Shown here: positions 333 through 24,211 of the stretch, in pieces
Numbering within the stretch: the stretch's first letter is position 1
Layout of the letters: each line of letters begins with the position of its first letter
IMG/VR virus record: IMGVR_UViG_3300047392_000086
Span: 1 to 24,266 of that record
DNA length: 24,266 bases
Source: a virus
Reading direction: 5' to 3' (one strand)
Position numbers and translations under genes: made by a program
Notes under the pieces: generated by a model
What the model saw: only the letters and a program-made list of their open reading frames with translations
The model's database searches: none
What the model was told of the DNA's origin: nothing

Positions 333-338
333 TAGGCT

Positions 339-572
339 ATGAATACTGATGAAGTTACTCATGAGCATATCTATGATCGTTTACTGGCTGTAGAAGCTAA
401 GGTAGACAGTATAGACAAGAACACTCAAGAAGTTGTGAAGGCTTTCAATGCAGCTGCAGGAGCTTTCCAAGTACTTGAGTGGATCGCTAAAGCTGTTAAA
501 CCTCTTATCGTCATAGGTGCTTTCTTTGGAGCTATTTGGTTAGCTATTGATAATAAATTACACGGAAGTTAA
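339..572 (+). CDS. small coiled-coil plus single-TM protein (XhlA-like, possible holin accessory)
   Basis: A 77-residue protein. Residues about 5-45 form an amphipathic helix or coiled coil (HEHIYDRLLAVEAKVDSIDK). Residues about 50-70 form one TM segment (KPLIVIGAFFGAIWLAI), followed by a short polar tail. A cytoplasmic coiled coil followed by one C-terminal TM resembles XhlA/haemolysin-type phage membrane proteins that help lysis. This is architectural similarity only. It sits away from the main lysis genes (8316-9384), between an unknown gene and a DUF6496-like gene, so a role in virion entry or membrane docking is also possible. TAGG lies just upstream of the ATG, an unusually short spacing. 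Confidence 0.7.
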   Translation: MNTDEVTHEHIYDRLLAVEAKVDSIDKNTQEVVKAFNAAAGAFQVLEWIAKAVKPLIVIGAFFGAIWLAIDNKLHGS

Positions 573-579
573 TAACAAC

Positions 580-753
580 ATGAAAAAACCTACTAAAGCT
601 ATGCAAAAGATGGGTAAAGTAATGCACGAGTACAAGACAGGTACTCTGCATAGTGGCAAGGGAGGCCCAGTAGTTAAGTCACGTGCCCAAGCAGTTGCCA
701 TTGCCCTAAGTGAGGCAGGTAAGGCTAAAAAGCCCGGTAAAAAGAATAAGTAA
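580..753 (+). CDS. DUF6496-like small basic protein
   Basis: A 57-residue, very Lys-rich protein. I placed the start at ATG 580, with GGAAG about 11 bases upstream. A TTG at 547 would extend it into the preceding gene and has no ribosome binding site. The core KVMHEYKTGTLHSGKGG followed by VKSRAQAVAIALSEAGKA matches the DUF6496 pattern, a short G-x-L-x-S-G-x-x-G-x-x-V stretch followed by QAxAIALSxA. That family is common in phages and bacteria and has no proven function. High basicity suggests nucleic-acid binding, which is inference. It overlaps no neighbour and precedes the tail adaptor gene. Confidence 0.75.
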   Translation: MKKPTKAMQKMGKVMHEYKTGTLHSGKGGPVVKSRAQAVAIALSEAGKAKKPGKKNK

Positions 754-764
754 AGGATCTATAA

Positions 765-1415
765 ATGGCTACGTATTTAGACGCTGTGAACAATGTGCTC
801 AGACGCTTGCGTGAGCCTACTGTAACCTCTGTTAACGATACAGACTATGCTTCAATGATAGGTGTGTTTGTTAACGATGCTAAGCGTGAGATTGAAGATG
901 CTTATGATTGGAATGCACTGTCTGATACTTTGACAGCTAACACTACAGCTGACATCTTTAATTATGTTTTAGTAGGTTCTCGTACTCGTTTCCGTGTCAT
1001 TGATATTTACAATCAGACTAAGGGACTTGAGATGAGCTACAAGCCTACAACATGGATGAATAGACAGTTCATTATTGTTGATCAGCAGAAAGGTTCACCA
1101 ACATACTACAACTTTAACGGTGTAGATGCTAACGGTGATACTCAGGTTGATATTTATCCAGTTCCTGATGGTGTATATGCTATCAGGTTTAACTTAGTTA
1201 TTCCTCAGGCTGATCTAGTTAGTGACAATGATCGTATCTTAGTTCCTCCTCACTTGGTTAGCATGTTAGCATATTCTAAAGCTATTGCTGAGCGCGGTGA
1301 AGACTCTGGAGTGTTGTCCTCAGAAGCCTATCAAGCATACAGACTTGCAATGGCAGATGCTGTGGCTATTGAACGTAATCACTATGATGAAGAGATGTCT
1401 TGGGATTCAGTCTAA
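765..1415 (+). CDS. head-tail adaptor protein (SU10 adaptor / tail tubular A type)
   Basis: A 216-residue protein with an AAAGGA ribosome binding site 8 bases before ATG. The N-terminus (YLDAVNNVLRRLREPTV, then a helix ending in EDAYDWNAL) is typical of podovirus and SU10-type adaptor proteins. These form a ring below the portal and connect it to the nozzle. The middle is beta-rich (RFRVIDIYN, VDIYPVPDGVYAIRFNLV), as in this family, and the C-terminus is helical (HLVSMLAYSKAIAERGEDSG, then AYRLAMADAVAIER). Length is close to T7 gp11. Its stop codon directly abuts the start of the nozzle gene, the usual adaptor-nozzle order, which supports the call. Confidence 0.8.
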   Translation: MATYLDAVNNVLRRLREPTVTSVNDTDYASMIGVFVNDAKREIEDAYDWNALSDTLTANTTADIFNYVLVGSRTRFRVIDIYNQTKGLEMSYKPTTWMNRQFIIVDQQKGSPTYYNFNGVDANGDTQVDIYPVPDGVYAIRFNLVIPQADLVSDNDRILVPPHLVSMLAYSKAIAERGEDSGVLSSEAYQAYRLAMADAVAIERNHYDEEMSWDSV

Positions 1416-2957
1416 ATGTCAGAACAACTACTAACAACAACCGTACAAGCTCCGGGCTTCATGGGCTTGAACTTACAGGACTCTTCAGTGAGTCTTGAGA
1501 ATGGTTATGCCACTGTAGCTACTAACTGTGTTATTGATAAGTTTGGACGTATTGGTGCTCGTCAAGGATGGTCTCCAGCACACACTACAGTGTCTTCTTT
1601 AACAGGATACAATGTTAAATGTATCGGTGAGTTAATTGATAATGCAGGTGACTCATATATTGTAGCTACAGGACACAATAAGTTATTTAAACTTGTAGGT
1701 ACTACCTTAACTGAGTTAACCTATGGAGGGGGTGGTACAGCTCCTACCATTACAGATGATAACTGGCAGATGGCTCCATTGAACGGATGTATGTATCTGT
1801 ATCAATCTGGACATACTCCACTGGTGTTCGATCCTGCGGTCAGTACAACTACCTATAGGCGTATTTCTGAGAAGTCAGGATACTTAGGAACTGCACAGTC
1901 TAATAACTGTGTAATCAGTGCCTATGGTCGTACATGGAGTGCTAACAGTACTTCAGTTAAAAGCACTATACAATTCTCAGATCTATTAGCTGGTCATGTC
2001 TTGAATACAGGTACTTCAGGTACTTTGGATGTATCTCAAGTATGGCCTTCAGGCGCTGATGAAATTGTTGCCTTAGCTGCACACAATAACTTCTTGATTA
2101 TCTTTGGTCGTAGACAGATATTGATTTATGCCAATGCTACAGATCCTAATAATATAGCTCTATCAGACTCTATTACAGGTGTTGGCTGCTTCGCTAGAGA
2201 CTCCGTAGCTAAGACAGGTAGTGATATTGTATTCCTGTCAGATACGGGTGTAAAATCTCTAATGCGTACCATTCAAGAGAAATCAGCTCCAATGCGTGAG
2301 TTGAGCTTGAATGTTAAGGATAGTCTGGTTAAAGACTTATCTCTTGAAACAGCTTCCAATATCAAAGCAGTTTATTCAGATAAGAATGCTTTTTACTTAT
2401 TGTCTCTACCTACAGCCAATGTTGTCTATTGCTTTGATATGCGTGGACAGCTTCAGAATGGTGCTGCTAAGACTACAACGTGGGATAATATTACTCCTAC
2501 ATCCTTCTTCTACACACGTAGTAAAGATTTATTGTTAGGAAAAACAGGATATATTGGAAAATATCAAAATTATCTTGACAATACCTCTACTTATAAGTTA
2601 AAATACTATACTAACTACTTTGACTTTGGTTCTCCAACATCTTTAAAGATTCTTAAGAAGGTTAATCTTACCTTTATCGGTGGTAACGGTGCTGACGTTG
2701 TAGTTAAGTATGGCTTTGATTTCAGCCCTAGTTATGACTCAAGAATTATTGAACTAGGAGGTATCTCCATCGCTGAGTACGGTGTATCTGAATACAACAT
2801 TGGACAATACACAGCAGGTGTTGTTTACGATAATAAGAAGATTCAAGCCAGTGGTTCAGGCAATACTCTTCAAATTGGCATAGAAACAGATATAAATAAC
2901 TTTGAAATATCTTTACAGAAACTCGATTGCTATGTTAAAGCAGGAAGGACACGATAA
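1416..2957 (+). CDS. tail nozzle protein (tail tubular B-type beta-propeller)
   Basis: A 513-residue protein. The N-terminus (QAPGFMGLNLQDSSVSLENG, then CVIDKFGRIGARQGW) is the typical opening of phage nozzle or tail-tubular-B-like proteins, which close the short tail and gate DNA release. The rest is almost entirely beta-strand with repeated blades (CIGELIDNAGDSYIVATGHN, MAPLNGCMYLYQSGHTPLVF, IVALAAHNNFLIIFGRRQ, IVFLSDTGVKSLMR), consistent with a beta-propeller. It is shorter than T7 gp12 (about 790 aa). It follows the adaptor gene with no gap and overlaps the next gene by one base (TAATG). No catalytic motif was seen. Confidence 0.8.
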   Translation: MSEQLLTTTVQAPGFMGLNLQDSSVSLENGYATVATNCVIDKFGRIGARQGWSPAHTTVSSLTGYNVKCIGELIDNAGDSYIVATGHNKLFKLVGTTLTELTYGGGGTAPTITDDNWQMAPLNGCMYLYQSGHTPLVFDPAVSTTTYRRISEKSGYLGTAQSNNCVISAYGRTWSANSTSVKSTIQFSDLLAGHVLNTGTSGTLDVSQVWPSGADEIVALAAHNNFLIIFGRRQILIYANATDPNNIALSDSITGVGCFARDSVAKTGSDIVFLSDTGVKSLMRTIQEKSAPMRELSLNVKDSLVKDLSLETASNIKAVYSDKNAFYLLSLPTANVVYCFDMRGQLQNGAAKTTTWDNITPTSFFYTRSKDLLLGKTGYIGKYQNYLDNTSTYKLKYYTNYFDFGSPTSLKILKKVNLTFIGGNGADVVVKYGFDFSPSYDSRIIELGGISIAEYGVSEYNIGQYTAGVVYDNKKIQASGSGNTLQIGIETDINNFEISLQKLDCYVKAGRTR

Positions 2958-3187
2958 TGTCTAATTATACAAAAAGTACTGACTTTGCAGTCAAAGATGC
3001 ACTAGCTTCAGGTAATCCTAGTAAGCTTGTTAAAGGCACTGAGATTGATACTGAGTTTAGTGCTATCTCTTCAGCTGTGAACTCTAAAGCTGATAAAGTT
3101 AATCCCACATTCACAGGAACCCTGTCAGCTGCAGATATTGCAATGTCAGGAACATTTACAGGTACACTTGACGGAGGCTCGTACTGA
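2957..3187 (+). CDS. orphan tail-fibre anchor-like protein
   Basis: A 76-residue protein whose start overlaps the nozzle stop by one base, with AGGAAGG upstream. The stretch DALASGNPSKLVKGTEID followed by FSAISSAVNSKAD is the pattern often found at the N-terminus of podovirus tail-fibre and tail-spike proteins. There it docks the fibre to the tail and leads into a coiled coil. Here it is followed only by two short repeats of the form TFTGTL-S/D and then stops, so no receptor-binding domain is attached. It may be a docking adaptor for a fibre encoded elsewhere, or a remnant. The stop is followed after one base by the next start. Confidence 0.7.
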   Translation: MSNYTKSTDFAVKDALASGNPSKLVKGTEIDTEFSAISSAVNSKADKVNPTFTGTLSAADIAMSGTFTGTLDGGSY

Positions 3188-3188
3188 T

Positions 3189-4178
3189 ATGGCTGATTGG
3201 ACATCTTTAATTGGCCCTCTTTTGGGCACTGCAGGTAGTATTTATACAGCTAACAAAGCTGCTAGTGCTACTACCGATGCTGCTAACAATGCCGCACAAG
3301 CTGCACAGTTTAGACCTATAGGCATCACTACTAGGTTTGGTAAGTCAGGTTTTCAGTATGATCCTACAACAGGTCAAGTAACTGGTGCTGGCTATCAAGC
3401 AGCCCCTGATGTAGCTGCAATGCGTGAAGGTTTGATGGGCATGGCTGGTGCTGGCTTAGGTCAGGCTCAGGCTGCTCAAGCTCAGCAAGCAGGTATTACT
3501 CAAGCTGGTCAAGGCTTATTTAACTTAGGTCAGCAATATGTCGCTGAGACACCTCAGGCTGCAGCTCAGAGATTCATGGGTCAACAGCAGCAACTGTTAG
3601 CTCCCGGTCGTGAACAACAACTGGCTCAGTTGACTAACCAGCAACAACAGCAAGGTCGTTTAGGTCTAGCTACTGGTGGTACTTCTGCAGGTTACACAGC
3701 TGGTGGTCAAGGCTTGCAAGCTACTAATCCTCAGATGGCTGCATACTATAACGCTATGGCTCAGCAAGATGCTCAGTTGGCAGGACAAGCTCAACAGGCT
3801 GGTATGCAACAAGCTCAGTTCGGTCAAGGATTGATGACAGGTGGTATAGGACTACAAGGCGCTGGTTATGGCTTGCAGACACAAGCTTTGAACCCCTACT
3901 CAAGCTACATGCAAGGTGCTTCTAATATTGAAAACCAAGCTCAGAATGCCTTGACTCAAGGAATGGGATTAGGATCGTCTATTACAGCAGGATCAACCGC
4001 TGCTGCAAATATCCAGAATCAAGCAGCTCAACAAGCAGCAGCTTTGCAGATGCAACGTAATAACGCTGTAGTAGGTGGTCTAACAGATCCTATCAGTCAG
4101 TTGATTTCAGGACTAACAGGCGGTACATCTAATGCCAATGCAGCAATTAATCCTTACTTCCAGCCTGTAAAACCATAA
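3189..4178 (+). CDS. Ala/Gln-rich DNA-ejection (internal virion) protein 1
   Basis: A 329-residue protein starting at ATG 3189, one base after the previous stop. Upstream in-frame codons lie inside the fibre-anchor gene and are unlikely starts. The N-terminus (MADWTSLIGPLLGTAGSIYT) is weakly hydrophobic. The remainder is dominated by Ala, Gln and Gly (QAQAAQAQQAG, QQQQLLAPGREQQLAQLTNQ, MAQQDAQLAGQAQQAGMQQA). This composition, together with its place after the nozzle and before two further long helical proteins, matches internal virion proteins that leave the head with the DNA and form a channel through the cell envelope. Assignment rests on composition and order; the sequence gives no fold-specific motif. 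Confidence 0.65.
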   Translation: MADWTSLIGPLLGTAGSIYTANKAASATTDAANNAAQAAQFRPIGITTRFGKSGFQYDPTTGQVTGAGYQAAPDVAAMREGLMGMAGAGLGQAQAAQAQQAGITQAGQGLFNLGQQYVAETPQAAAQRFMGQQQQLLAPGREQQLAQLTNQQQQQGRLGLATGGTSAGYTAGGQGLQATNPQMAAYYNAMAQQDAQLAGQAQQAGMQQAQFGQGLMTGGIGLQGAGYGLQTQALNPYSSYMQGASNIENQAQNALTQGMGLGSSITAGSTAAANIQNQAAQQAAALQMQRNNAVVGGLTDPISQLISGLTGGTSNANAAINPYFQPVKP

Positions 4179-4187
4179 GGAAATATA

Positions 4188-5474
4188 ATGGCAACACAAT
4201 CAATTCAAGGCTTATTTGGAGGCATGGGTACTCCTGAGGAAATGCAGCAGCAAGCAGTAGACCAACGAGCTGCTCAGTTTGCCGCTATGTCTCCTCAACA
4301 ACAGATGTCTTTTAACATCTACAAGAACACTGGTAACTTAGGTCGTGGCTTAGCAGGTGCAATGGGTGTTGATGTGCAAGATCCTGCAGTGCGTAGAGCT
4401 ACAATGCTTCGTCAGTTGGCTTCACAGTATGATACAAGCACACCTGAAGGTCTAAAGCAAATGGCTTCAGCAGTTCAAGGTACAGATCCTGAGCTTGGCT
4501 ATCAGATTATGCAACGTGCTCAAGAGATGGAGAAAACAGCTGCTGAGACAGAGCTTAAGAAAGCACAAACAACGAAAGCATTAACAGCTAAAGAAACAAG
4601 TACAGCTTCTGAGCGTAACCGTAAAGAAATCTCAGCTGCTGAAGTTAAACTAGCTGAAGGTAAACCTTTGTCTAATGCTGAATTGGCAAGTCTTCGTTGG
4701 TTAGTGGCTCAAGAGACTAAGGTTAAGACATTCCAAGATCCTGATACTCGTGAGATTGTTCGTATTGAACCTATTGATTTATCTCAAGCAGCTCCTAACT
4801 TATTTAAACAACTTGTACAAGCCCCTGCTAACTTAGGTGGAACTGAAGGAGCACCTGCATCAGCTCAAGGTCAGCCAGCTCCTACAGGTACTTATGGTGG
4901 CGGTAAGGTCACTACAATGGCTACTCCAGCCTCTATAGCTAAAGAGCAAGCTGCTACTGAAGCTAAAGATATGGCTATTAATCGACTTGGTGAGGGATTA
5001 ATTAATATCAATCAAGCTATGGATCTTATGAAGAGTCCTTCAGCTAATCCTTGGATTTCAGGATGGACTGAGAGTTTCCCTACAGATGCCAGAGCTTTGA
5101 ACAATGTTGTAACTTCATTGAAGAGTCAGAAAACTATTGATCTGATTAATCAAATGAAACAAGCATCTAAGACTGGTGCTACAGGTTTTGGTTCAGTCAC
5201 TGAGAAAGAACTTGATTTGCTTCAGTCTGATATTGTAAAGTTAGATCAGCGTAGCCCAACATTTAAAGAAGATCTTAAGCGTCTCCAAACAACTTGGACT
5301 AACTTGCAGAACAAGATTAAGAGTTCACAAGCTGGCGGCAAACAACCTGCTGCTCCTACTGAAACATCTAATGCAGCTTTAGAAGCTAAAGTTTCTAAGT
5401 TTATGGCTGCTAATCCAACCATGTCTAGAGAAGCTGTTATTGAACAGATGAAGAAAACTGGACACTATAAATAA
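4188..5474 (+). CDS. DNA-ejection (internal virion) protein 2
   Basis: A 428-residue protein with AAGGA 7 bases before ATG. It is helical and soluble. Residues about 10-50 are Gln/Ala-rich (QQQAVDQRAAQFAAMSPQQQ). A charged helix follows at about 110-150 (MQRAQEMEKTAAETELKKAQ). A Pro/Gly/Ala linker lies at about 215-245, then a helical domain with KTIDLINQMKQASKTGATGF and GSVTEKELDLLQSDIVKLDQ. That second block resembles a conserved helical segment seen in many phage ejection-type proteins (recognition from memory). Gene order places it second of three, comparable with P22 gp20 or T7 gp15, although direct homology is not claimed. Confidence 0.65.
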   Translation: MATQSIQGLFGGMGTPEEMQQQAVDQRAAQFAAMSPQQQMSFNIYKNTGNLGRGLAGAMGVDVQDPAVRRATMLRQLASQYDTSTPEGLKQMASAVQGTDPELGYQIMQRAQEMEKTAAETELKKAQTTKALTAKETSTASERNRKEISAAEVKLAEGKPLSNAELASLRWLVAQETKVKTFQDPDTREIVRIEPIDLSQAAPNLFKQLVQAPANLGGTEGAPASAQGQPAPTGTYGGGKVTTMATPASIAKEQAATEAKDMAINRLGEGLININQAMDLMKSPSANPWISGWTESFPTDARALNNVVTSLKSQKTIDLINQMKQASKTGATGFGSVTEKELDLLQSDIVKLDQRSPTFKEDLKRLQTTWTNLQNKIKSSQAGGKQPAAPTETSNAALEAKVSKFMAANPTMSREAVIEQMKKTGHYK

Positions 5475-5482
5475 GGAATACA

Positions 5483-7774
5483 ATGGCTGATAATCGTCCA
5501 AATACACGACAAGAAGCATACGATTCACTTGTTAAACAGCTAAATTCTGCTAAAGATCGTTTGAACGCTGCCATTAAAAGTGGTGAAGTTCCTAACGACT
5601 CACGTGCTATTATCAACAGTAAATACGCTAAAGAGATAGACCGTATACAGGCACAGATTCGTTCTACTGGCCCTATTGGAGAACTGGGTGCAGGAATGAC
5701 ATCTGCTGCTGTAGGTCTTCTTACAGGTATTCCTGACTTAGGTATTGCTGGTTACAATCTCTATAATGAGAAACGTGCACCTACAATGTCTGAGTTAGTG
5801 ACGGGCAAGCCAGCACCTGTTACACCTCTTCGTGAGCGTGTGATGGAGTTTGCAGGTATGGCTCCTGAGGCAACATCTAAGGAAGGTGCTATGTTACAAG
5901 CAGCTCCTGATATTGCTGTAGGTGCTTATGGTTTGGCTCAACTAGGTAAACTAGGCTATACAGGCTTAAGGAATTGGCTTGATAGTCGTAAGACAAAAGA
6001 GCTTCTGTCTAAGTTATCTCCTGAAGAAGGAAATGTATTTAGAGATCTTATGCTTAAGGGTCAAGGTAGCTCCAATGCTGAAGTAGCTGCACAGATTGCT
6101 AAACTTGAGCGTGATCCTAAGTATGCTGAACTTTTAGCTGCTTTTAACCGTGAAGCTTCAACTCGCAGTGTGCAGGGAATAACTCCAGCAACATCTAGAA
6201 TTACTGAAGAACAAGCTGCTATAGGTTCAGCACAGGCCGTACAGAATAAGTTGTCAGGTCTTTCAGAGGCTCGTAAAGTAGCTGGAGATCAGTCATTTAA
6301 TAAAGCTTTTGGCTACGGTGAAGGTAAACAACTTGTAGACCCTTCTAATACTATTGCTAATATTGATAAACTGATTGCTCGTTATTCTAAGCAGACTACT
6401 GGCAATGCTGAGAAAGCTGTAGAAGTACTGAACAATCTTAAAGATAAACTGTCTACACCTACTGCACCTACTACACCTTTTACAGGTGTTGGTGGCGGTA
6501 TTCAACCGACAACTCTTAAGACTGCTGAAGAAGTTCAGGGTATTTTGTCTGAGTTTGGTAAGAAAGCCTCTCAAGGTGATAGTCTCATTAAAGACTTGGC
6601 ACTGTCAGATGAGAAGATTATTAGTTCAGCTGTCTTTGGTGGCATGAAGGATGATCTTGCAGCTGCTTTTAAACAGGCATCAGGTTCAGACAGGACAGCT
6701 CTAGGTATGCTTATTCGTGCTCGTAAAGAAGTATCAGATGCTTCTACAGCATATACAGATGCAGTTGCTCAAGGTATTCCAGCATGGTTGAAAGACAAGA
6801 GGCTTTCTGAGATTAACTTTGAAGATCTGTACTCACAATACAAAGCTACAACACCAGCTCAACGTGCTACGTTTAGGTCTTATGTACAGAATACAGAGCC
6901 TGAAGCTTTAAAGAATCTAGACTCTCGTGTATGGTCTGATTTTACAACTAAGTATCAGTCTATTCTCCCTGACGGTCTGCCCGGTATTGACTTGGCTAAG
7001 ATGGCTCAAGACTGGACTAAGATGTCAGCAGTTGAAAAGGATGCTGTAGCTACTGCTTTGGGTCAGAATACTTCTACTTTTAGTGATCGTATGAAAGATG
7101 CTCTTATCTTTACACGTAAACTACAAGTTGGAGCTGGAGAAGAATCTGCTGGAAGAGTTACTAGAGATGCAGCTGCCTTAGTTGGTACTACTCCTTTGGG
7201 CTATCAGGGTGCTAAAGCTACTCAGCTTGTAGGGGATACTTTAAGGTCATTTAAGTCAAATGCTATTCCTAGTGATCTTGCATTTAAGACATTATTGACA
7301 CCTGAAGGTGCTTCCTTCCTGAAATCAGCTGCCCTGTCTCCCGGAGGTCGTAAGACTTTAGAGGAGCTTACAAAGGTAAATCAATCTCAAGGTATTCTTC
7401 CAACAGTGGCTCAGATTGGTACTGCTGTAGCTCCTTCAACGACACCTGAAGCTGAACCTTCTTTTGTAGTTCCTGAAGAGTTTAAAATGCCTACTGAAGG
7501 AACTCCTATGGAACAACCTCAGCCTCAAGAGCAACAACAGCCAGCACAAGCACCTGCTGAGGGTGGTTTTGTTATTCCTGCAGAGTTTCAACAGACAGCT
7601 ACACAAGCTACTTCAACAGCCCCTAAGTCTCGTACAGATATGTCTAGAGAGATTCTTAATAACGAACTTACTAAGTTGCAGGGTGCTTTGTCAACTACTG
7701 CAGATCCAGCTCAACAAGGTCGTTTACAGCGAGATTTGGAAGCCCTTCAACGTGAAATATCACGGTTGAAATAA
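5483..7774 (+). CDS. DNA-ejection (internal virion) protein 3, longest
   Basis: A 763-residue protein with an AAGGA ribosome binding site. The N-terminal 55 residues form charged helices. Residues about 60-90 form a Gly/Ala-rich hydrophobic hairpin (GELGAGMTSAAVGLLTGIPD, then LGIAGYNLYN) that could insert in a membrane, and a second hydrophobic patch lies at about 140-160 (APDIAVGAYGLAQLG). A long helical middle follows. The C-terminus is a Pro/Gln-rich tail that carries the motif FV(V/I)P(E/A)EF twice, near residues 660 and 696, and ends in a predicted coiled coil. Length, hydrophobic hairpin and position suggest the membrane-penetrating ejection component. No lytic transglycosylase motif was seen. 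Confidence 0.65.
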   Translation: MADNRPNTRQEAYDSLVKQLNSAKDRLNAAIKSGEVPNDSRAIINSKYAKEIDRIQAQIRSTGPIGELGAGMTSAAVGLLTGIPDLGIAGYNLYNEKRAPTMSELVTGKPAPVTPLRERVMEFAGMAPEATSKEGAMLQAAPDIAVGAYGLAQLGKLGYTGLRNWLDSRKTKELLSKLSPEEGNVFRDLMLKGQGSSNAEVAAQIAKLERDPKYAELLAAFNREASTRSVQGITPATSRITEEQAAIGSAQAVQNKLSGLSEARKVAGDQSFNKAFGYGEGKQLVDPSNTIANIDKLIARYSKQTTGNAEKAVEVLNNLKDKLSTPTAPTTPFTGVGGGIQPTTLKTAEEVQGILSEFGKKASQGDSLIKDLALSDEKIISSAVFGGMKDDLAAAFKQASGSDRTALGMLIRARKEVSDASTAYTDAVAQGIPAWLKDKRLSEINFEDLYSQYKATTPAQRATFRSYVQNTEPEALKNLDSRVWSDFTTKYQSILPDGLPGIDLAKMAQDWTKMSAVEKDAVATALGQNTSTFSDRMKDALIFTRKLQVGAGEESAGRVTRDAAALVGTTPLGYQGAKATQLVGDTLRSFKSNAIPSDLAFKTLLTPEGASFLKSAALSPGGRKTLEELTKVNQSQGILPTVAQIGTAVAPSTTPEAEPSFVVPEEFKMPTEGTPMEQPQPQEQQQPAQAPAEGGFVIPAEFQQTATQATSTAPKSRTDMSREILNNELTKLQGALSTTADPAQQGRLQRDLEALQREISRLK

Positions 7775-7779
7775 CTACT

Positions 7780-8070
7780 ATGAGAAAGCTAATACTTGCC
7801 CTACTAACACTAGGGCTGTTAGCCTCAGCTCAAACTCCTCAGACGAACTGTTCAAGAGAATTCTATCTAATCTCCCAGACACTTCATAATCCTACAGAGA
7901 GACATCAGCAACTTTTAAAGATACTGTCAATCTATGAATGTACTACCACTGATTTAAATATTATATGGAATAACTTAAATAATTGGTCAGGGTCATCAGA
8001 CAGTGCAGCTTTAAGAGCAAAGGTTATATTTGAATACGACAAAGCTACTTTAAGGGAGATTAAGAAATGA
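7780..8070 (+). CDS. small exported protein with two cysteines
   Basis: A 96-residue protein with a clear signal peptide: MRK, a hydrophobic core LILALLTLGLLA, then SAQ-TPQ as the likely cleavage site. The mature part is about 78 residues and has two Cys (C24 in TNCSRE and C53 in YECTTT) that could form a periplasmic disulfide. There is no lipobox (the hydrophobic core is not followed by Cys), so it is not a typical Rz1-type lipoprotein. It sits just upstream of the lysis cassette and overlaps the next gene by 4 bases (ATGA). The ribosome binding site is poor. Function unknown; superinfection exclusion or a lysis accessory role would be guesses. Confidence 0.7.
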   Translation: MRKLILALLTLGLLASAQTPQTNCSREFYLISQTLHNPTERHQQLLKILSIYECTTTDLNIIWNNLNNWSGSSDSAALRAKVIFEYDKATLREIKK

Positions 8071-8306
8071 TTACCTTAGATAAGTGGTATCCAATGGTTT
8101 ATCCTACTCAGCAGAACATTGAGCAAGCAGCATTTGAAAGGGCTGCACAACGTGTTGAAGAGGAATATAAAGAAGCTTTAGAAGCTAATAAGATTGAGTT
8201 TAAGACTCATCAATTAGAAGTGGAACTATACGATAAAAAAGCTAGACAGAATACCATTGAGTTAGGCATGTTTGAGGATCGTAAAAGATTTCAGGTTTTT
8301 GTGTAA
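8067..8306 (+). CDS. small coiled-coil protein of unknown function
   Basis: A 79-residue protein. The start overlaps the preceding stop (ATGA), with AAGGGAG 8-9 bases upstream. After a short N-terminus (MITLDKWYPMVYPTQQN) nearly the whole protein is a charged helix (AAFERAAQRVEEEYKEALEA). There is no TM segment or signal peptide, so despite its place near the lysis genes it does not look like an inner-membrane spanin. It could be a small scaffold or cytoplasmic partner protein. I do not recognise the family. Confidence 0.7.
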   Translation: MITLDKWYPMVYPTQQNIEQAAFERAAQRVEEEYKEALEANKIEFKTHQLEVELYDKKARQNTIELGMFEDRKRFQVFV

Positions 8307-8315
8307 GGGAGTAAC

Positions 8316-8552
8316 ATGGAAATAACAATGAGAGAAAAACTTACCTTCTGGGTAACATTTATGATTAGCATTACTTTATGCTTTTCAGTCTTAGCTATGG
8401 TTGTAGCCTTCCTCATGGGTTTATGGGCTAAAGAAGTTGATAATGGTGAGATCTTTAAGATGATTAGTCCTGCTTTCTCAACACTCATCGGTGGCATGAT
8501 CGGCTTCTTATCAGGCATTAAATTAAATCAAGTAGAGGATGAAAAGAAATGA
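8316..8552 (+). CDS. two-TM membrane protein, holin or antiholin candidate
   Basis: A 78-residue protein with GGGAG just upstream of ATG. Two TM helices are evident: residues about 10-37 (FWVTFMISITLCFSVLAMVV, continuing to GLW) and about 47-67 (MISPAFSTLIGGMIGFLSGI). A charged loop (AKEVDNGE) joins them and the C-terminal tail is charged (NQVEDEKK). Size and topology match class II holins, and it directly precedes the GTA-type holin with a 4-base ATGA overlap, so the two are translationally coupled. It could be a second holin or an antiholin; the sequence cannot decide. Start: the second in-frame ATG (MREKL) five codons later also has plausible spacing. Confidence 0.75.
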   Translation: MEITMREKLTFWVTFMISITLCFSVLAMVVAFLMGLWAKEVDNGEIFKMISPAFSTLIGGMIGFLSGIKLNQVEDEKK

Positions 8553-8956
8553 TAGGACTAGATGCACTACTGAATGTTGGTGGTAAACTCATTGACAAGT
8601 TAATACCAGATCCTGAACAGAAAGCTAAGGCTCAGTTTGAACTAACTAAGATGGCTCAGGATGGTGAACTAGCTAAGATGGCTAATGAAACTAAGCTATA
8701 TGAGACTGAACAGAATAATCTTACAGAACGAGTTAAAGCTGATATGGCTAGTGACTCATGGATGTCTAAGAATATTCGTCCATTAACTCTAATCTTTATT
8801 CTCGTAGCTTATTCAGGTTTTGCTATTGCATCTATCTTTGAGTTTGAAACTAGAGGAGCCTACGTAGAACTTCTAGGGCAATGGGGAATGCTTGTTATGA
8901 GCTTCTACTTTGGTGGTCGTACAATGGAGAAGATTGCAGATAGGGTTAAGAAATGA
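8549..8956 (+). CDS. holin, GTA-type three-TM family
   Basis: A 135-residue protein. The N-terminus carries LIPDPEQKAKAQFELTKMAQ, then a charged helix, then SWMSKNIRPLTL and TM segments at about 77-98 (LIFILVAYSGFAIASIF) and 104-124 (ELLGQWGMLVMSFYFGGRTM). The pattern DPEQKAKA...SWMSKNIRPLT...FYFGGRTMEK is diagnostic in my recollection for the holin family of gene transfer agents and many phages (GTA_holin_3TM). The role is pore formation in the inner membrane to release endolysin. It is coupled by ATGA overlaps to both the upstream two-TM gene and the downstream endolysin gene. Confidence 0.88.
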   Translation: MIGLDALLNVGGKLIDKLIPDPEQKAKAQFELTKMAQDGELAKMANETKLYETEQNNLTERVKADMASDSWMSKNIRPLTLIFILVAYSGFAIASIFEFETRGAYVELLGQWGMLVMSFYFGGRTMEKIADRVKK

Positions 8957-9384
8957 CAAATCTAACTGAACACTTTACACTTGAAGAGTTAACTCATACA
9001 GATCACAGAGAGTTTGATAATATTCCAAATGAACAAGAACTTGCAAACCTTAAGCGACTTGCAGCCTTCCTTGAGGAAGTCAAAACTGTATTGGGTGGAA
9101 GACCAATCATGGTTAACTCAGCTTTTAGATGCAAGCAAGTCAATGATGCTGTCGGCTCTAAAGATAGTAGCCAGCATCGCATTGGTTGTGCTGTGGACAT
9201 CAGAGTACCTCAACTGACCCCTGATGAAGTAGTTAAGACAGTTATTGCTTCAGGTCTACCTTATGATCAGATCATTAGAGAATTTGATAGATGGACACAC
9301 ATAAGCATTCCAAACACACCGGATGCTAAGCCTCGAAAGCAAGCACTAATTATTGACAAGCAAGGTACTAGAGCATACGCTTAA
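8953..9384 (+). CDS. endolysin, peptidase M15 (D-Ala-D-Ala carboxypeptidase type)
   Basis: A 143-residue protein. HFTLEELTHTDHREFDNIPN is the standard opening of the M15A phage/bacterial peptidase family. The zinc site is visible: SSQHRIGCAVDI gives H75 and D82, and WTHIS gives H116. E110 in IREFDRW is the likely catalytic acid region, and R59 in NSAFRC is the usual substrate-side Arg. It cleaves peptidoglycan stem peptides. There is no signal peptide, so export through the adjacent holin is expected. It is the last gene of the late block and is followed immediately by the terminator. Confidence 0.92.
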   Translation: MTNLTEHFTLEELTHTDHREFDNIPNEQELANLKRLAAFLEEVKTVLGGRPIMVNSAFRCKQVNDAVGSKDSSQHRIGCAVDIRVPQLTPDEVVKTVIASGLPYDQIIREFDRWTHISIPNTPDAKPRKQALIIDKQGTRAYA

Positions 9385-20409: not shown

Positions 20410-20438
20410 AGGGTAGCATACTTTGTACAGATTGTCAA
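20410..20438 (-). promoter_or_regulatory. putative sigma70 promoter for replication block
   Basis: Reading minus, TTGACA (20438-20433) is followed by a 17-base spacer and TACCCT (20415-20410), preceded by TG at the extended -10 position (TGCTACCCT). The -35 is perfect; the -10 is weak but has the extended element. A 10-bp palindrome, ACTTTAAAGT, lies at 20399-20408, at the expected transcription start. Strength is uncertain. Confidence 0.5.
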
Positions 20439-20674
20439 TAGCCCTCCCTGTCAATGTTGTCACCAATGTGACTGTTATCATCATCTTCATCCTCTACACT
20501 ATCGTCAATGTCATCCTCTGAGATTAGGTCTCTACGATCCTTCGTAGGTAGGTTAGCATCCATTTGTACAGTCTTAAAGCACTGCCGACATAGGTCTATA
20601 AACACCCCTGTAACTGCATGTTTACGGGTAGCTTCAAAGTCTGTCAGTAGCTTGTCACAACATAAGCACTTCAT
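20435..20674 (-). CDS. 79-aa zinc-ribbon protein with acidic tail
   Basis: ATG at 20674 has GGAGG 5 bases upstream and overlaps the preceding stop (ATGA). Two CxxC pairs are visible: C3-x2-C6 (KCLCCDK) and C29-x2-C32 (LCRQC). Between them lies DFEATRKHAVTGVFID. The C-terminus is very acidic (EDDIDDSVEDEDDD). I recognise the MKCLCC-K-L-DFEATRK opening from small phage zinc-finger proteins, of unknown role. The acidic tail might mimic nucleic acid or bind basic proteins (inference). The stop lies within the -35 box of the next promoter. Confidence 0.82.
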   Translation of the reverse strand: MKCLCCDKLLTDFEATRKHAVTGVFIDLCRQCFKTVQMDANLPTKDRRDLISEDDIDDSVEDEDDDNSHIGDNIDREGY

Positions 20675-20823
20675 ACATCCTCCAGTACTTCAACCAATTC
20701 CATGTCATCAGGGTCATAACCTAGCTCTTCGTAGACCTTATCCTGAGCAGCTTCCTCACTTGAGGCATACACCCAAATTGTCCTAGTTGGGCTTACCTGA
20801 TAACAGTATTCATTCATAATCAT
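20671..20823 (-). CDS. 50-aa acidic protein of unknown function
   Basis: Reading minus from ATG at 20823 (GGAG 8 bases upstream; ATG 20817 is the alternative): MIMNEYCYQVSPTRTIWVYA, then SSEEAAQDKVYEELGYDPDD and an acidic end. An N-terminal strand pair plus an EEAxxxV-EEL helix resembles small phage proteins with a beta-beta-alpha layout. ATGA overlap with the zinc-ribbon gene supports it. Confidence 0.75.
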   Translation of the reverse strand: MIMNEYCYQVSPTRTIWVYASSEEAAQDKVYEELGYDPDDMELVEVLEDV

Positions 20824-20824
20824 G

Positions 20825-21034
20825 TCATTTTCTCCGTTTGTAAGGGTTAACAGTTGACCATGCCGCTAAGTGTACGGCCTTGCCTGAGTCATCGTAGCAG
20901 AGACTGTACATCCCGTCAATGTGCTTGAACCATAACATCCCTGCATGTGTCTTGACTGGTGTCTCTTTGGGTACGTCATACAATGGAATTGAAGATTGTT
21001 CAATCCAGTCTTTTAAGTCAATTTCTGATAACAT
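20825..21034 (-). CDS. 69-aa protein of unknown function
   Basis: ATG at 21034 has AGGG upstream. The sequence MLSEIDLKDWIEQSSIPLYD is followed by a beta-rich part (AGMLWFKHIDGMYSLCYDDS, then GKAVHLAAWSTVNPYK). It is a small soluble protein in the early block, with aromatic-rich strands. No motif or family is recognised. Confidence 0.75.
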   Translation of the reverse strand: MLSEIDLKDWIEQSSIPLYDVPKETPVKTHAGMLWFKHIDGMYSLCYDDSGKAVHLAAWSTVNPYKRRK

Positions 21035-21047
21035 AGCACCCTACCCC

Positions 21048-21341
21048 TTACCTAATGTTAAATGAAGGCTTAGAGAGGCCATAAACGGCTTCTAAAGTGT
21101 GTTTGTGATCGTAGTCAATGGTCTCTTGTTCAGAATACTCTAAGTCATAGGCCTTTTTAGCGTCCCATTCAAGTTCTGTCCATTGATTGTCAGACAAAAT
21201 GTCATGTACGTTAAAGCCCTCAAAAAGTACATGATTGAATTCTGCGATGTCCCCGTCTTGATCCACTTCGCAGGACACCGATACCAAAGCCCTACTATCA
21301 GCCAATAGTGTGTCAAAGTTAAAAGTTACAGTGTTGCTCAT
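21048..21341 (-). CDS. 97-aa acidic protein of unknown function
   Basis: ATG at 21341 has AGGA 7-8 bases upstream and overlaps the preceding stop (ATGA). The sequence opens with strands (MSNTVTFNFDTLLADSRALV, SVSCEVDQDGDIAEFNHVLF) and ends in a strongly acidic helix (DAKKAYDLEYSEQETIDYDH). Strong acidity in an early phage protein is compatible with DNA mimicry, but nothing specific is shown. Confidence 0.75.
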   Translation of the reverse strand: MSNTVTFNFDTLLADSRALVSVSCEVDQDGDIAEFNHVLFEGFNVHDILSDNQWTELEWDAKKAYDLEYSEQETIDYDHKHTLEAVYGLSKPSFNIR

Positions 21342-21487
21342 GCTTGTTTCCTAGTTATGACAAGTTTATAAAGGTTTGAAGGTTCCCCGTCAAGGTTGTT
21401 ATTGTCTTGCATCCACTCTTGAGCGAATTTAAGACTGTTAAATGTTGCCACTACAATGCCGGATGATATTGAGACTATTTTGTACAT
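21338..21487 (-). CDS. 49-aa protein of unknown function
   Basis: Reading minus from ATG at 21487: MYKIVSISSGIVVATFNSLK, then FAQEWMQDNNNLDGEPSNLY and KLVITRKQA. AAGG lies about 12 bases upstream. Beta-beta-alpha-beta layout; it resembles a mini version of the 50-aa protein at 20671-20823 (strands, then an A-E-W helix). ATGA overlap with the next gene; only one base separates it from the previous stop. Confidence 0.72.
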   Translation of the reverse strand: MYKIVSISSGIVVATFNSLKFAQEWMQDNNNLDGEPSNLYKLVITRKQA

Positions 21488-21488
21488 G

Positions 21489-21905
21489 TTACTGCTTAAC
21501 CTTTTTGAATGTTACAGTTTTGCCTTGTTGCTTTTGAAATAGTACTTCGAATTCTGCTTGATCCTCAGAAAATAGAGTACTTACAAGTTTACCCTTATCA
21601 TTGTAGACCTTCCACACTGGCTCACCGTCTAATCTTCCAGTATCGGGCAGATAATCTTGCTTTTCCTCGTCAAAGAATGACCATCCCTCCCAATGTCTAC
21701 GTTTATCGTCACAATCGAAGACAAGCGAATATTCACGTTTACCAATCATTAGAAAATTATGGTTACGCTCAAAACTACCGTGTCCAATGTCTCCGCTTGC
21801 ATATTGCCCATATTTAGGAAATAAAACATACCAATGATCCCTTTCTAGGTCGACAATCAGTTCTAGCTTGTGCTTGTTTACTTCAATGTTAAAGTGCTTG
21901 ATCAT
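21489..21905 (-). CDS. 138-aa protein of unknown function
   Basis: ATG at 21905 has GAGG 10 bases upstream and overlaps the previous stop (ATGA). It is the longest protein of the early block. Strand-rich, aromatic sequence (HKLELIVDLERDHWYVLFPK, HNFLMIGKREYSLVFDCDDK, RRHWEGWSFFDEEKQDYLPD), then VWKVYNDKGKLVSTLFSEDQ and a basic end. A single compact beta domain is likely. No family recognised. Confidence 0.77.
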   Translation of the reverse strand: MIKHFNIEVNKHKLELIVDLERDHWYVLFPKYGQYASGDIGHGSFERNHNFLMIGKREYSLVFDCDDKRRHWEGWSFFDEEKQDYLPDTGRLDGEPVWKVYNDKGKLVSTLFSEDQAEFEVLFQKQQGKTVTFKKVKQ

Positions 21906-22066
21906 TTGTTTATATCCTCTTCATCAATGTTAAGAATTGCTAAAATAGCCTTGACCTTATCAGCCGATACAGTCATCCACCTAGTGTCCCCGTTAAAACT
22001 TTGGAGCTTTAGGTCAACCTGATCCTTATCGCCTAACTTTTTAAATTCATGGTCATAATAAGTCAT
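21902..22066 (-). CDS. 54-aa protein of unknown function
   Basis: Reading minus from ATG at 22066 with AGGGA 9 bases upstream: MTYYDHEFKKLGDKDQVDLK, then LQSFNGDTRWMTVSADKVKA and ILAILNIDEEDINK. A beta hairpin (D-VDLKLQSFNGDTRWMTVS) followed by a helix recalls small phage DNA- or protein-binding modules, but nothing specific. ATGA overlap with the 138-aa gene. Confidence 0.75.
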   Translation of the reverse strand: MTYYDHEFKKLGDKDQVDLKLQSFNGDTRWMTVSADKVKAILAILNIDEEDINK

Positions 22067-22092
22067 TTTACTGTTTCCCTATATAGTACAGC

Positions 22093-22374
22093 TTAGGACA
22101 ATGACAGGTGCGTAACCTTGCCTTCATTGGTATCGCGTGCCTTAGCGTATGAGACACGCCTAGAGCTACCGTAAGCCTTCAAAACTGCGTTCATGTGTGA
22201 AGCTGTCGTTCGTGTGTAATAGCCTCCCCAATCAGTCACTAACTGGCCTTGCTCGTTCCAGTAGACAATAACTGTACGGTGTAAGGTGTAGCGTTGTCCA
22301 TCAGTGTGTGCATTGTGACAGTGAGCCGCTTTGTTGTTAATGAAAGCTTTTGCAGTTTGTTCAATAGTTGCCAT
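22093..22374 (-). CDS. 93-aa basic protein of unknown function
   Basis: I placed the start at ATG 22374 (MATIEQTAKAF...) because AAAGGA lies 10 bases upstream; upstream codons in frame lack such a signal. The sequence has TYTRTTASHMNAVLKAYGSS-like features: residues YTLHRTVIVYWNEQGQLVTD, then YYTRTTASHMNAVLKAYGSS and a basic end. One strand hairpin and a helix are evident; no recognised family. The 95 bases upstream (22375-22469) form a leader with small hairpins, for example AGGC-TACG-GCCT reading minus. Confidence 0.7.
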   Translation of the reverse strand: MATIEQTAKAFINNKAAHCHNAHTDGQRYTLHRTVIVYWNEQGQLVTDWGGYYTRTTASHMNAVLKAYGSSRRVSYAKARDTNEGKVTHLSLS

Positions 22375-22469
22375 GATCGTGTTTCCTTTAAAGGTAGGCC
22401 GTAGCCTTGAGTTACTGCGACAGTGCAGTGCATAGCAGTCTGTCACACTGCTACACAATAGGCTGTCAC

Positions 22470-22568
22470 TTAAGCGACTAATACGTCAAAATAGGCCAGT
22501 GCACCACAGGCCAATAGTAGGCCGATAAGTACTGCGCTCAGTAGATCATAGAATAATTCTTTAGACAT
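22470..22568 (-). CDS. 32-aa single-TM micropeptide
   Basis: Reading minus from ATG at 22568: MSKELFYDLLSAVLIGLLLA, then CGALAYFDVLVA. An AAGGAG ribosome binding site, 9 bases upstream, is among the best in the window and is the main reason to accept so short a gene. One TM helix spans about residues 8-26. The stop is followed by the 22375-22469 leader. Function unknown. Confidence 0.62.
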   Translation of the reverse strand: MSKELFYDLLSAVLIGLLLACGALAYFDVLVA

Positions 22569-22571
22569 GGT

Positions 22572-22796
22572 TTATACTCCTTTTGCATAGTTACGCAATG
22601 ACTTAATATAGCCCAGCTTGTCAGCGTGGCTTTGTACGTTACCTTGCCAAGCCACTACAATGGATCCTGACTTGCGTACACCTAAAAATCTACCCTTGTT
22701 AGTCTTATCACCTGCATAGACCATTTGACCCGCTTGGATGTGCTTACAAAGATCTGCAGGGATATCCCAAATATTGAACATTGACTGATATTTCAT
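22572..22796 (-). CDS. 74-aa basic protein of unknown function
   Basis: Start at ATG 22796 (MKYQSMFNIWDIPADLCKHI), with GGAG 9 bases upstream; a longer reading would run into the preceding gene. The middle is strand-rich with Gly and Lys (GQMVYAGDKTNKGRFLGVRK, then SGSIVVAWQGNVQSHADKLG). A small SH3-like or OB-like barrel is possible. No family recognised. Confidence 0.72.
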   Translation of the reverse strand: MKYQSMFNIWDIPADLCKHIQAGQMVYAGDKTNKGRFLGVRKSGSIVVAWQGNVQSHADKLGYIKSLRNYAKGV

Positions 22797-22800
22797 GATA

Positions 22801-23007
22801 TTACTCCGCTGTTTCAATTTCATTAATGAGTCGTTGAAGCTTATCCTGTTGTTGTACCAACAATGACCAACTGTAAGATAGATCACTAGTATCTGACAAT
22901 GCCTGTGTTGTTTTCTCGAGGCAATCTCTCAATTCCTGAAGTGTCCAAGTGTTGACTGCTGATAAGCCCTTGAAAACCTCTGCGCTGATAGTGTGATATT
23001 GTTTCAT
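22801..23007 (-). CDS. 68-aa helical protein of unknown function
   Basis: ATG at 23007 has AGGAG 9 bases upstream. The protein is helical: MKQYHTISAEVFKGLSAVNT, then WTLQELRDCLEKTTQALSDT and WSLLVQQQDKLQRLINEIET. A coiled-coil hairpin is likely. It has no recognised motif. Confidence 0.72.
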   Translation of the reverse strand: MKQYHTISAEVFKGLSAVNTWTLQELRDCLEKTTQALSDTSDLSYSWSLLVQQQDKLQRLINEIETAE

Positions 23008-23048
23008 GATTTAAGCTCCTAGTTGGTGGTTGATAAAAGTTTACTCCA

Positions 23049-23067
23049 AAGCCCCCAGTAGAGGCTT
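23049..23067 (-). terminator. weak hairpin between first two early genes
   Basis: Reading minus, AAGCC (23067-23063) pairs with GGCTT (23053-23049), followed by TTGGAGTAAACTTTTATC. The U-run is poor and separated from the stem, so this may be an attenuator, an RNA-processing site or nothing. Confidence 0.25.
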
Positions 23068-23086
23068 CAGGGTATACTCTTATAAT

Positions 23087-23323
23087 TTAACCATAGTGAC
23101 AGAACTGTGAGCGTGTGTTTTGGTTAGGATAGTCAGGCATATAGAAGTGGCACTGGTAAGCATGAGGTGTTTGTTTCTTGATCTCTAAAGTCTTTGCAAG
23201 TGCCTCAGCAGGATCTTTGCACTCTATTTCTACCTTTGCTAATAGATCACAGTATGCACCCTCTCTGTGTGTTATGGGCGTGTTGCCTGTTGCTGATAAC
23301 ACTGTAATGATTGTCTTATACAT
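23087..23323 (-). CDS. 78-aa protein of unknown function, first leftward early gene
   Basis: ATG at 23323 has a full AAGGAG 8 bases upstream. The sequence is MYKTIITVLSATGNTPITHR, then GAYCDLLAKVEIECKDPAEA and LAKTLEIKKQTPHAYQCHFY, ending FCHYG. Four Cys and an alternating strand-helix layout; no signal peptide. As the first gene leftward of the gene-free region it is expected very early after infection. No family recognised. Confidence 0.75.
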   Translation of the reverse strand: MYKTIITVLSATGNTPITHREGAYCDLLAKVEIECKDPAEALAKTLEIKKQTPHAYQCHFYMPDYPNQNTRSQFCHYG

Positions 23324-23527: not shown

Positions 23528-23658
23528 TTATCCACACCAGCTTTAATACTTATCCACAAATGTAACTCTTATATAAGACTTAACCTGTGCATAACTGTAT
23601 ACCCTTAGGAGTATCTTATCCACAGACATTGAATAACCTGTGATTATCTTGTGGATAA
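23528..23658. other. cluster of five DnaA boxes, putative replication origin
   Basis: TTATCCACA occurs on the plus strand at 23528-23536, 23550-23558 and 23616-23624, and on the minus strand at 23650-23658 (seen as TGTGGATAA). TTATGCACA occurs on the minus strand at 23586-23594. All fit the DnaA consensus TTATNCACA exactly. The stretch between boxes 2 and 3 is AT-rich (TCTTATATAAGACTT). Five perfect 9-mers in 131 bp is far above chance. Confidence 0.75.
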
Positions 23659-24129: not shown

Positions 24130-24158
24130 TTGACAAATAGACAAACATAGTGTATAAT
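24130..24158 (+). promoter_or_regulatory. perfect-consensus sigma70 promoter, rightward
   Basis: TTGACA (24130-24135), a 17-base spacer and TATAAT (24153-24158) give the ideal sigma70 core promoter. The start is expected near 24165. It drives transcription out of the window to the right. The upstream side is A/T-rich (24101-24129), like an UP element. Confidence 0.88.
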
Positions 24159-24185: not shown

Positions 24186-24211
24186 CTAAGAAGCCTGACC
24201 CCACTTCTTAG
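24186..24211 (+). promoter_or_regulatory. leader hairpin downstream of the rightward promoter
   Basis: CTAAGAAG (24186-24193) pairs perfectly with CTTCTTAG (24204-24211) across a 10-base loop, about 20 bases into the predicted transcript. There is no following U-run, so it is not an intrinsic terminator. It could protect the 5' end of the RNA or control a downstream gene. Confidence 0.55.

Follow-up and report, generated by a model that had tools for sequence, protein, structure and literature searches.

Blocks of tiny genes of unknown function are where phages keep many of their host-directed proteins, and the exchange and control of such genes are poorly known outside the T4-like phages. 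The locus described here raises both matters: what are the small genes of the window (the whole stretch of 24,266 nt that was analysed) for, and what governs which of them a phage carries? An earlier note saw in them a candidate early cassette for host takeover or anti-defence. The reading that we consider probable is that they form the end of a replication arm, divided into two zones, of which the distal one would carry a leader RNA that controls or exchanges accessory genes.

Composition of the small-gene block

The ORF listing places 12 ORFs, all on the minus strand, between positions 20435 and 23323, which bears out the extent and single-strand layout first described and confirms the small-gene block as observed. 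The count, previously about eleven, rises through an ORF at 22470-22568 (g4tm, 32 aa, one apparent membrane span) that falls below the 40-aa limit of the first listing. Relatives carry these genes too, at a dN/dS well below 1, so the block genes are more than chance reading frames; their median dN/dS of 0.04-0.23 indicates purifying selection. Most of the ORFs have Shine-Dalgarno-like sites in keeping with the strong ribosome binding sites ascribed to all of them, but those of g8 (21338-21487) and g10 (20825-21034) are weak or oddly spaced.

The block proteins are almost without named relatives, and the statement that none has a recognised function stands: the sole clear family match is that of g3 (22572-22796, 74 aa) to phrog_21585, itself of unknown function, which is matched over its full length (E 4.8e-26, profile positions 2-74 of 75). 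Relatives of g3 occur in 24 phage records. The protein g5 (22093-22374, 93 aa) has a weak likeness to PF23790 (Kyano_Gp96) at 20.6 bits, under the curated cut-off of 27, and no match in the phage collection. The acidity that had been pointed out in g9 (21048-21341, 97 aa; pI 4.2, net charge -14) and g11 (20671-20823, 50 aa; pI 4.1, net -11) is real and extends to g12 (20435-20674, 79 aa; pI 4.3, net -11), but g3 (pI 9.9) and g5 (pI 9.6) are basic. The combination of a zinc ribbon with an acidic tail in one protein, g12, also holds, with a four-cysteine zinc-ribbon-like N-terminus whose pattern (C3, C6, C29, C32) is kept in a 45-row alignment (A2).

The block had further been placed beside an early control region, which is correct only in part. 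Of the two conserved sigma70-like promoters found, one (24130-24158) leads outward into the late arm; the other (20410-20438, minus strand) lies at the block's downstream end. The latter, TTGACA-17-TACCCT with a TG before the second hexamer, sits at the end of g12 and leads out of the block into g13, g14 and the primase; a site is present at this junction in all 68 sources examined, nine of which match 11-12 of the 12 consensus bases. The T7-type RNA polymerase family PF00940 was found in none of the 14 relatives' contigs searched, whose ends may be missing, while the same search detected it in the positive control S-CBP3. The phage thus seems to lack an RNA polymerase of the phage type.

Two zones with different inheritance

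The block was compared across 80 related loci, with gene presence counted over 81 sources. The proximal zone on the primase side (20435-21341) is conserved and travels together with the replication genes: g9 is present in 65 sources (Mantel r against the primase 0.69), g10 (69 aa) in 44 (r 0.63), g11 in 54 (r 0.51) and g12 in 67 (r 0.77). The genes g9-g14 and the family F8 all track the primase (r 0.51-0.77, p<0.001 for each). At the transition lies g8 (49 aa, 33 of 81 sources, r 0.32). The distal zone (21338-23323) is a mosaic exchanged among related loci, with a gene content that varies even among close relatives. Here g1 (23087-23323, 78 aa, dN/dS 0.072) occurs in 4 of the 81 sources, g2 (22801-23007, 68 aa, dN/dS 0.137) in 7, g4tm in 45 (r 0.38), g5 in 5, g6 (21902-22066, 54 aa) in 8 and g7 (21489-21905, 138 aa) in 16, the last being strongly conserved wherever it is found (dN/dS 0.041). 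Neither g3 (r 0.17) nor g7 (r 0.04) significantly tracks the primase, and the same is true of the RNA element discussed below (r 0.11). Short sequences give noisy distances in Mantel tests, a concern answered in part by a length control in which 90-nt pieces of the primase gave r 0.62-0.75. The two zones are thus shown to differ in inheritance. No relatives of the primase were found in genome_contigs.

The turnover of the distal genes and the independence of g3 and g7 from the primase are as expected if these genes were host-directed. The proximal genes look more like support for replication or expression than like swappable anti-defence functions, since they are co-inherited with the primase and a g12-like gene stands directly before the primase of phage MEP402; homologues of g12 lie upstream of replication genes in both MEP402 and ct2os315.

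This division bears on the proposal of a single early cassette, spanning the entire block and dedicated to host takeover or anti-defence, in which the acidic proteins would mimic DNA or inhibit host enzymes. Several features are compatible with it: the replication arm opens with small genes, g9, g11 and g12 are acidic, the distal genes turn over and the dN/dS of g9 is relatively high (0.215). The accessory-like character of the distal half supports it in part. The acidic and zinc-ribbon genes, however, sit in the widespread proximal half and are co-inherited with the primase. Searches for defence, anti-restriction and inhibitor families gave no firm match for any block member, and PADLOC, run on 102 block proteins of relatives, returned only homing endonucleases and one weak match labelled DRT. 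DNA-mimic inhibitors such as Ocr carry a DNA-like surface charge and bind host enzymes; g9 has a net charge of -14 in 97 aa, and its predicted structure (pLDDT 77.9) consists of three strands and one long helix without a confident match among solved structures. As an account of the block as a whole, the cassette is doubtful.

Fold searches, which had been suggested as a check, were run for g9 and g7 and gave no confident match for either. The best matches of g9 were unnamed phage proteins in a viral library (E 5.6e-3 and 6.3e-3) and an exosome subunit among solved structures (Z 5.2). The model of g7 (pLDDT 88.6) shows a predicted fold of largely beta structure and a single helix close to the C-terminus; it came closest to FAIM domains (Z 6.4 and 6.1), and its scores against the phage baseplate proteins of Pam3 and XM1 (Z 5.7 and 5.1) are too weak to count as a likeness to virion parts. 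Profiles of g9 and g7 matched no solved structure. Among solved structures, g12 gave weak hits to TFIIE zinc ribbons (E 0.049 for the best) and one to an entry for the anti-CRISPR AcrIIC1 (E 0.3), all judged to reflect a generic zinc ribbon or chance.

A structured RNA element in the distal zone

Directly ahead of g5 lies a non-coding element of 89 nt (22382-22470, minus strand) which is shown to have an RNA structure with covariation. It contains three strongly covarying hairpins, and in an alignment of 33 copies (A7) 99.2% of 594 cells are paired, with a covariation of 0.429 against 0.122 +/- 0.014 in shuffled alignments (reached in 0 of 500 shuffles) and a pairing of at most 42.9% in slid controls. 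The regular expression used to gather the copies already prescribed the inner pairs in both hairpin 2 and hairpin 3, so that the unbiased evidence is that of hairpin 1 and the outer pairs. An additional, weaker hairpin encloses the ribosome-binding site of the following gene; across 37 copies the value for its own duplex is -2.82 kcal/mol against -2.09 for crossed duplexes (0 of 5000 permutations). The loop of hairpin 3 is TACG or CACG in 28 of the 33 copies, which we take to be of the UNCG type. Rfam contains no match to the element at E values up to 1, and no published account was found in Rfam and a narrow literature search.

At minimum energy, the window copy folds differently: the 5' end of the element pairs with part of hairpin 2, a competing conformation. 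The long hairpin so formed also fits the alignment, with 92.9% of 792 cells paired. This raises the possibility of a host RNase III site that cuts the polycistronic message and shields its downstream part; such sites lie between the early genes of T7. The window copy does fold as an irregular, internally looped hairpin of 20 pairs, and it sits between two small genes of one arm. Nevertheless, the unbiased covariation backs short separate hairpins. The long hairpin has a lower stem that hardly varies, shows almost no covariation and is broken at a pair in up to 9 of the 33 copies, and the L047 copy folds into separate hairpins. An RNase III site is accordingly unlikely.

Run over the 81 sources, a covariance model yields 45 sense copies at E<=0.0071, among them copies in L015, L038, L043, L059, L062 and L071 (two), all absent from model building; the weakest outgroup matches (L073, L079 and L075), at 25-27.5 bits, do not score clearly above the antisense shadows that true copies give. 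The element is missing from 12 of the 50 sources with enough sequence and from all five named phage records in which it was looked for (L082-L086). Its pattern occurs in 29 contigs, and the ten examined, not previously listed, bear genes of this lineage. In most copies only a few bases separate the element from the stop codon before it, and the start of the following gene lies 0-9 nt past its end; its orientation to that gene is the same in all the tabulated copies. The genes behind it are unrelated across phages (families F14, F18, F30, F36, F41, g5, F63, F65 and F8). The gene-to-gene placement is exact, and the element shows no detectable linkage with the primase, nor with the gene that follows it (r 0.04, p 0.42 for the latter).

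This placement matters for the proposal that the element binds host RNA polymerase directly and acts as an antiterminator, so that transcription continues through the arm. In the accessible parts of its description, the put RNA of phage HK022 is about 70 nt long and has two long stem-loops that bind the zinc-binding domain of the beta' subunit of host polymerase (PMC9378689). The size and multi-hairpin make-up of the element resemble put, and no phage-type polymerase was found; put, however, lies downstream of early promoters, while the element stands in the middle of the block and ends at a ribosome-binding site, which makes this function quite unlikely. Within 22382-22470 on the minus strand, no sigma70-like site (at least 9 of 12 bases, in a scan that covered the sigma70 type) and, by consensus-match scan, no terminator-like site was found. 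The element could act as DNA rather than as a transcript, but that it is solely a recombination or replication site with inverted repeats conserved by happenstance is improbable: it does sit where gene content changes, unlinked to the downstream gene, yet its orientation to that gene is constant in all tabulated copies, a covarying hairpin in its last part contains the ribosome-binding site of that gene, and the presumed UNCG-type loop of hairpin 3 fits RNA.

A model for the replication-arm end

The two-zone reading would accommodate these observations as follows. The block would be the upstream end of the replication arm. Zone 1 (g9-g12) would hold small, mostly acidic proteins inherited with the replication genes, which probably support phage DNA replication or expression, and zone 2 (g1-g8) would be an exchange zone of small accessory genes, some of them probably host-directed. 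The zone 2 RNA, which fills the entire gap from one gene's stop codon to the next start, would act as a leader within the transcript that sets processing or translation of the following gene, with the last hairpin covering the ribosome-binding site. We infer that the element serves as a leader RNA for the control, and perhaps also the exchange, of accessory genes; its shared sequence may permit homologous recombination that swaps the gene behind it.

More tentatively, the element might represent a new class of phage leader RNA, a portable adaptor that brings its own ribosome-binding-site hairpin and thereby ready-made control together with homology for swapping, possibly with the long hairpin and hairpin 2 as the two states of a switch. 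If so, it would be a searchable marker, the gene behind each copy would be an accessory candidate, and a covariance-model search would list host-directed candidates. The zone division itself guides screening, with the distal genes to be screened for anti-defence and the proximal ones for replication support.

Comparison with known systems

Like the window phage, the Methylophilales phages MEP401 and MEP402 (Zobellviridae) encode a g12-like protein ahead of their replication genes; they also share with it a replication arm opposite the remaining genes and a ribonucleotide reductase. MEP402 differs in that primase and helicase are encoded separately and the DNA polymerase is split, both being single genes here, and the resemblance to Zobellviridae consists of single genes only.

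Likened by description, and as far as the available portions of the put account go, HK022 put shares with the element that it is a phage RNA of similar size with hairpins in the early direction; the element differs in its mid-operon position at a ribosome-binding site and in its at least three short hairpins. The RNase III sites of T7 are likewise hairpins in gaps between small early genes, and a long irregular hairpin is possible for the element too, but covariation in the element favours short separate hairpins.

The PeSL (promoter early stem-loop) elements of T4-type phages, which combine an early promoter with a stem-loop that serves as terminator, were reportedly described by Arbiol in 2010 and Comeau in 2014. 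In the accessible parts of a later account, PeSL cassettes are structured and non-coding, occur in regions of intense small-gene shuffling and are thought to mediate it (PMC4503421). Measured against this partial description, the element resembles them in being structured, non-coding and placed between small genes, with a variety of genes following it. It differs in that the sigma70-type scan recognised no promoter in it, in its count of three or four hairpins and in the hairpin at the ribosome-binding site with which it ends. For the ORFanage of cyanophage S-PM2, the same excerpts state that its authors judged PeSL-type shuffling unlikely (PMC4503421). ORFanage regions such as this one, as the excerpts present them, resemble the block in their runs of small unknown genes absent from close relatives; the zone described here differs from them in having a conserved RNA at the junction.

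Layout of the window and reality of the small genes

The window, an IMG/VR virus record of 24,266 bases, carries what look from their products like virion and lysis genes on the plus strand (36-9384), and on the minus strand a replication arm that runs from 23323 down to about 9598. This arm encodes a primase-helicase, matching phrog_239 with E 1.1e-188, a PolA-type DNA polymerase and, judging by position and by a counterpart in HTVC115P, probably a ribonucleotide reductase. The block of small genes (20435-23323, minus strand) occupies its upstream end. The block's existence, which the earlier note had described as about eleven genes, is borne out with small corrections, as there are 12 ORFs from g1 (23087-23323) down to g12 (20435-20674), including a 32-aa peptide (g4tm, 22470-22568) overlooked by a coarser first ORF list.

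Relatives were collected via the primase (80 loci, 78-93% identity over the best segment; 81 sources with the window), and a simple ORF caller run upstream of the primase yielded 982 ORFs in 188 families, of which 100 are singletons and some are spurious ORFs in non-coding DNA. Each of the 12 window genes has relatives among these sources. With the window counted, g12 is found in 67 of 81, g9 in 65, g11 in 54, g4tm in 45, g10 in 44, g8 in 33, g3 in 17, g7 in 16, g6 in 8, g2 in 7, g5 in 5 and g1 in 4, numbers which are lower bounds because many sources are incomplete; g13 and g14, between the block and the primase, occur in 74 and 65. Median dN/dS (pairs with dS 0.05-1.2) is lowest for g7 (0.041) and highest for g4tm (0.228), with g1, g2, g5 and g6 represented by at most 10 pairs each. 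Two C-terminal forms of g7, full-length and shortened at about 91 aa, are seen among the window (21489-21905), L007, L014 and L022.

A stable core and a mosaic distal part

Pairwise gene distances were compared with those of the primase across the 35 loci with the RNA element discussed below, or those among them holding the gene. The primase is tracked by g12 (Mantel r 0.77), the ORF family F8 (0.74), g13 and g14 (0.70 each), g9 (0.69), g10 (0.63) and g11 (0.51), each with p<0.001, and more weakly by g4tm (0.38) and g8 (0.32). No tracking was found for g3 (r 0.17, p 0.18; 15 loci) or g7 (r 0.04, p 0.83; 14 loci). As g9-g12 follow the primase and g3 and g7 do not, the block has a stable core, which includes the acidic proteins (g9, g11, g12) and the zinc-ribbon protein (g12), and a mosaic distal part. 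The proposal that the block is an early host-takeover or anti-defence cassette is partly supported: the mosaic distal part speaks for it, and the acidic and zinc-ribbon proteins that had given rise to it speak against it by their place in the stable core.

The sole firm match of the block genes in Pfam, PHROGs, NCBIfam and PADLOC is that of g3 to phrog_21585, of unknown function; the scans covered g1-g3 and g5-g12 in PHROGs, g2, g3 and g5-g12 in Pfam and NCBIfam, and g1, g3 and g5-g12 in PADLOC. Weaker PHROG matches of g5, g10 and g11 are likewise all of unknown function, and g1 has a single weak PADLOC match (E 0.0096). A fold search with the predicted structures of g7 and g9 returned no confident relatives. 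For 102 block proteins of relatives (PHROG matches covering the first 25 of 51 families), the matches listed include GP88, DUF7249, DUF7222, HNH and homing endonucleases, a DNA methyltransferase and a YdcK-like repeat protein. One of these proteins also matches an Svx/AvrXca model (E 7.1e-12) and is presumably the beta-solenoid repeat protein. Distant relatives carry a tandem-repeat protein in the block (family F37; L072 533-1123), probably the member matching YdcK/bactofilin-like beta-solenoid models.

A structured RNA element ahead of unrelated genes

An 89-nt RNA element (22382-22470, minus strand) separates g4tm from g5; it contains no credible gene and combines a conserved structure and placement with a lack of linkage to the primase and to the gene behind it. 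Bases change among relatives while three hairpins are kept. In an alignment of 33 copies, 7 of the 10 pairs of hairpin 1 are changed on both sides, as is one pair each in hairpins 2 and 3; pairing holds in 99.2% of 594 cells (slid controls, at most 42.9%), and covariation, at 0.429, exceeds that of all 500 shuffles (0.122 +/- 0.014). Ten distinct hairpin-1 stems occur. These copies were collected by a regular expression that dictates the inner pairs in hairpins 2 and 3, which leaves the outer pairs and hairpin 1 as the unbiased evidence.

Across the 81 sources, a covariance model finds 45 sense copies (E<=0.0071), some of them outside its building set, as in L015, L038, L043, L059, L062 and, twice, L071. 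Because antisense shadows of true copies reach 27.2 bits, a hit is tentative when it scores less than about 28 bits; L077, L073, L079 and L075 gave hits in the weak range. The element is present in 12 of 12 searched records from a pattern scan, the 10 new ones carrying genes of the same lineage. Of the 50 sources whose sequence upstream of the primase reaches at least 3600 nt, 38 hold it when weak hits are counted, and the GP88 gene F16 is found in 9 of the 12 that lack it. In L030 (1283-1388), L066 (6864-6968) and L017 (2711-2797), additional hairpins, small and with loops of three bases, stand within or just after the element, as if they were added modules.

In most copies the 5' end falls at, or a few bases from, the preceding stop codon, and the next start codon follows the element at a distance of 0-9 nt. 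The genes behind it belong to unrelated families: among 46 copies tabulated, F14 11, F18 8, F30 6, F36 4, g5 3, F41 3 and others single. Where the ORF caller took another frame or a later gene, first-ATG reading gives F36-like (L004, L032, L069), F41-like (L019) and F14-like (L037) starts. L040 holds two copies, one ahead of g5 and the other ahead of F14. Element distance does not track the primase (r 0.11, p 0.10-0.12) or downstream-gene identity (r 0.04, p 0.42); as a length control, 90-nt primase pieces track a longer primase stretch with r 0.62-0.75.

A pyrimidine tract 3' of hairpin 3 is able to pair with the ribosome-binding site. This pairing exists in two forms in which both sides co-vary, and mean duplex energy over 37 copies is -2.82 kcal/mol for own pairs and -2.09 for crossed ones (0 of 5000 permutations as low). 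The element may work within the transcript, as a leader that controls whichever gene follows it, and its shared sequence could serve gene exchange. A long-hairpin fold competing with hairpin 2 is compatible with 92.9% of cells, so that the element might also be a switch or a site for RNase III. Put-like antitermination is possible as well, because no phage-type polymerase was found in the contigs of 14 relatives.

Promoters and a possible origin

A promoter at the block/g13 junction (20410-20438, minus strand; TTGACA, 17-nt spacer, TG, TACCCT) is oriented toward g13, g14 and the primase. A site at this junction occurs in all 68 sources long enough to show it: 59 have TG and match 9 of 12 consensus bases, and 9 more distant ones match 11-12 of 12. 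Its second hexamer, TACCCT, is near-invariant in the 59 ingroup sources, though far from TATAAT, which the 9 distant sources carry; this may reflect special regulation of the replication promoter. In most relatives, no equivalent conserved promoter was found upstream of the block. A second conserved promoter (24130-24158), with 12 of 12 sigma70 consensus bases, reads into the late arm; in L004, putative terminase-like genes follow a promoter of this type. Behind it stands a hairpin (24186-24211) with the invariant loop CCTGACCCCA, a motif that 39 of 81 sources share; 20 aligned copies show, by eye and unscored, stem changes that preserve pairing.

The divergent non-coding region holds four exact DnaA boxes, TTATCCACA, within 131 bases at 23528-23658 (five in the window, 0.21 expected from shuffles). 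Many relatives have comparable clusters, and the region is a possible replication origin.

Comparison with known phages

The RNA element, absent from the five named phage records searched and without an Rfam match, merits an experiment. Taken whole, the block is nothing unusual as phage regions go. MEP402 has a g12-like protein immediately ahead of its primase, and in ct2os315 such a protein is followed by two small genes and then the next replication gene.
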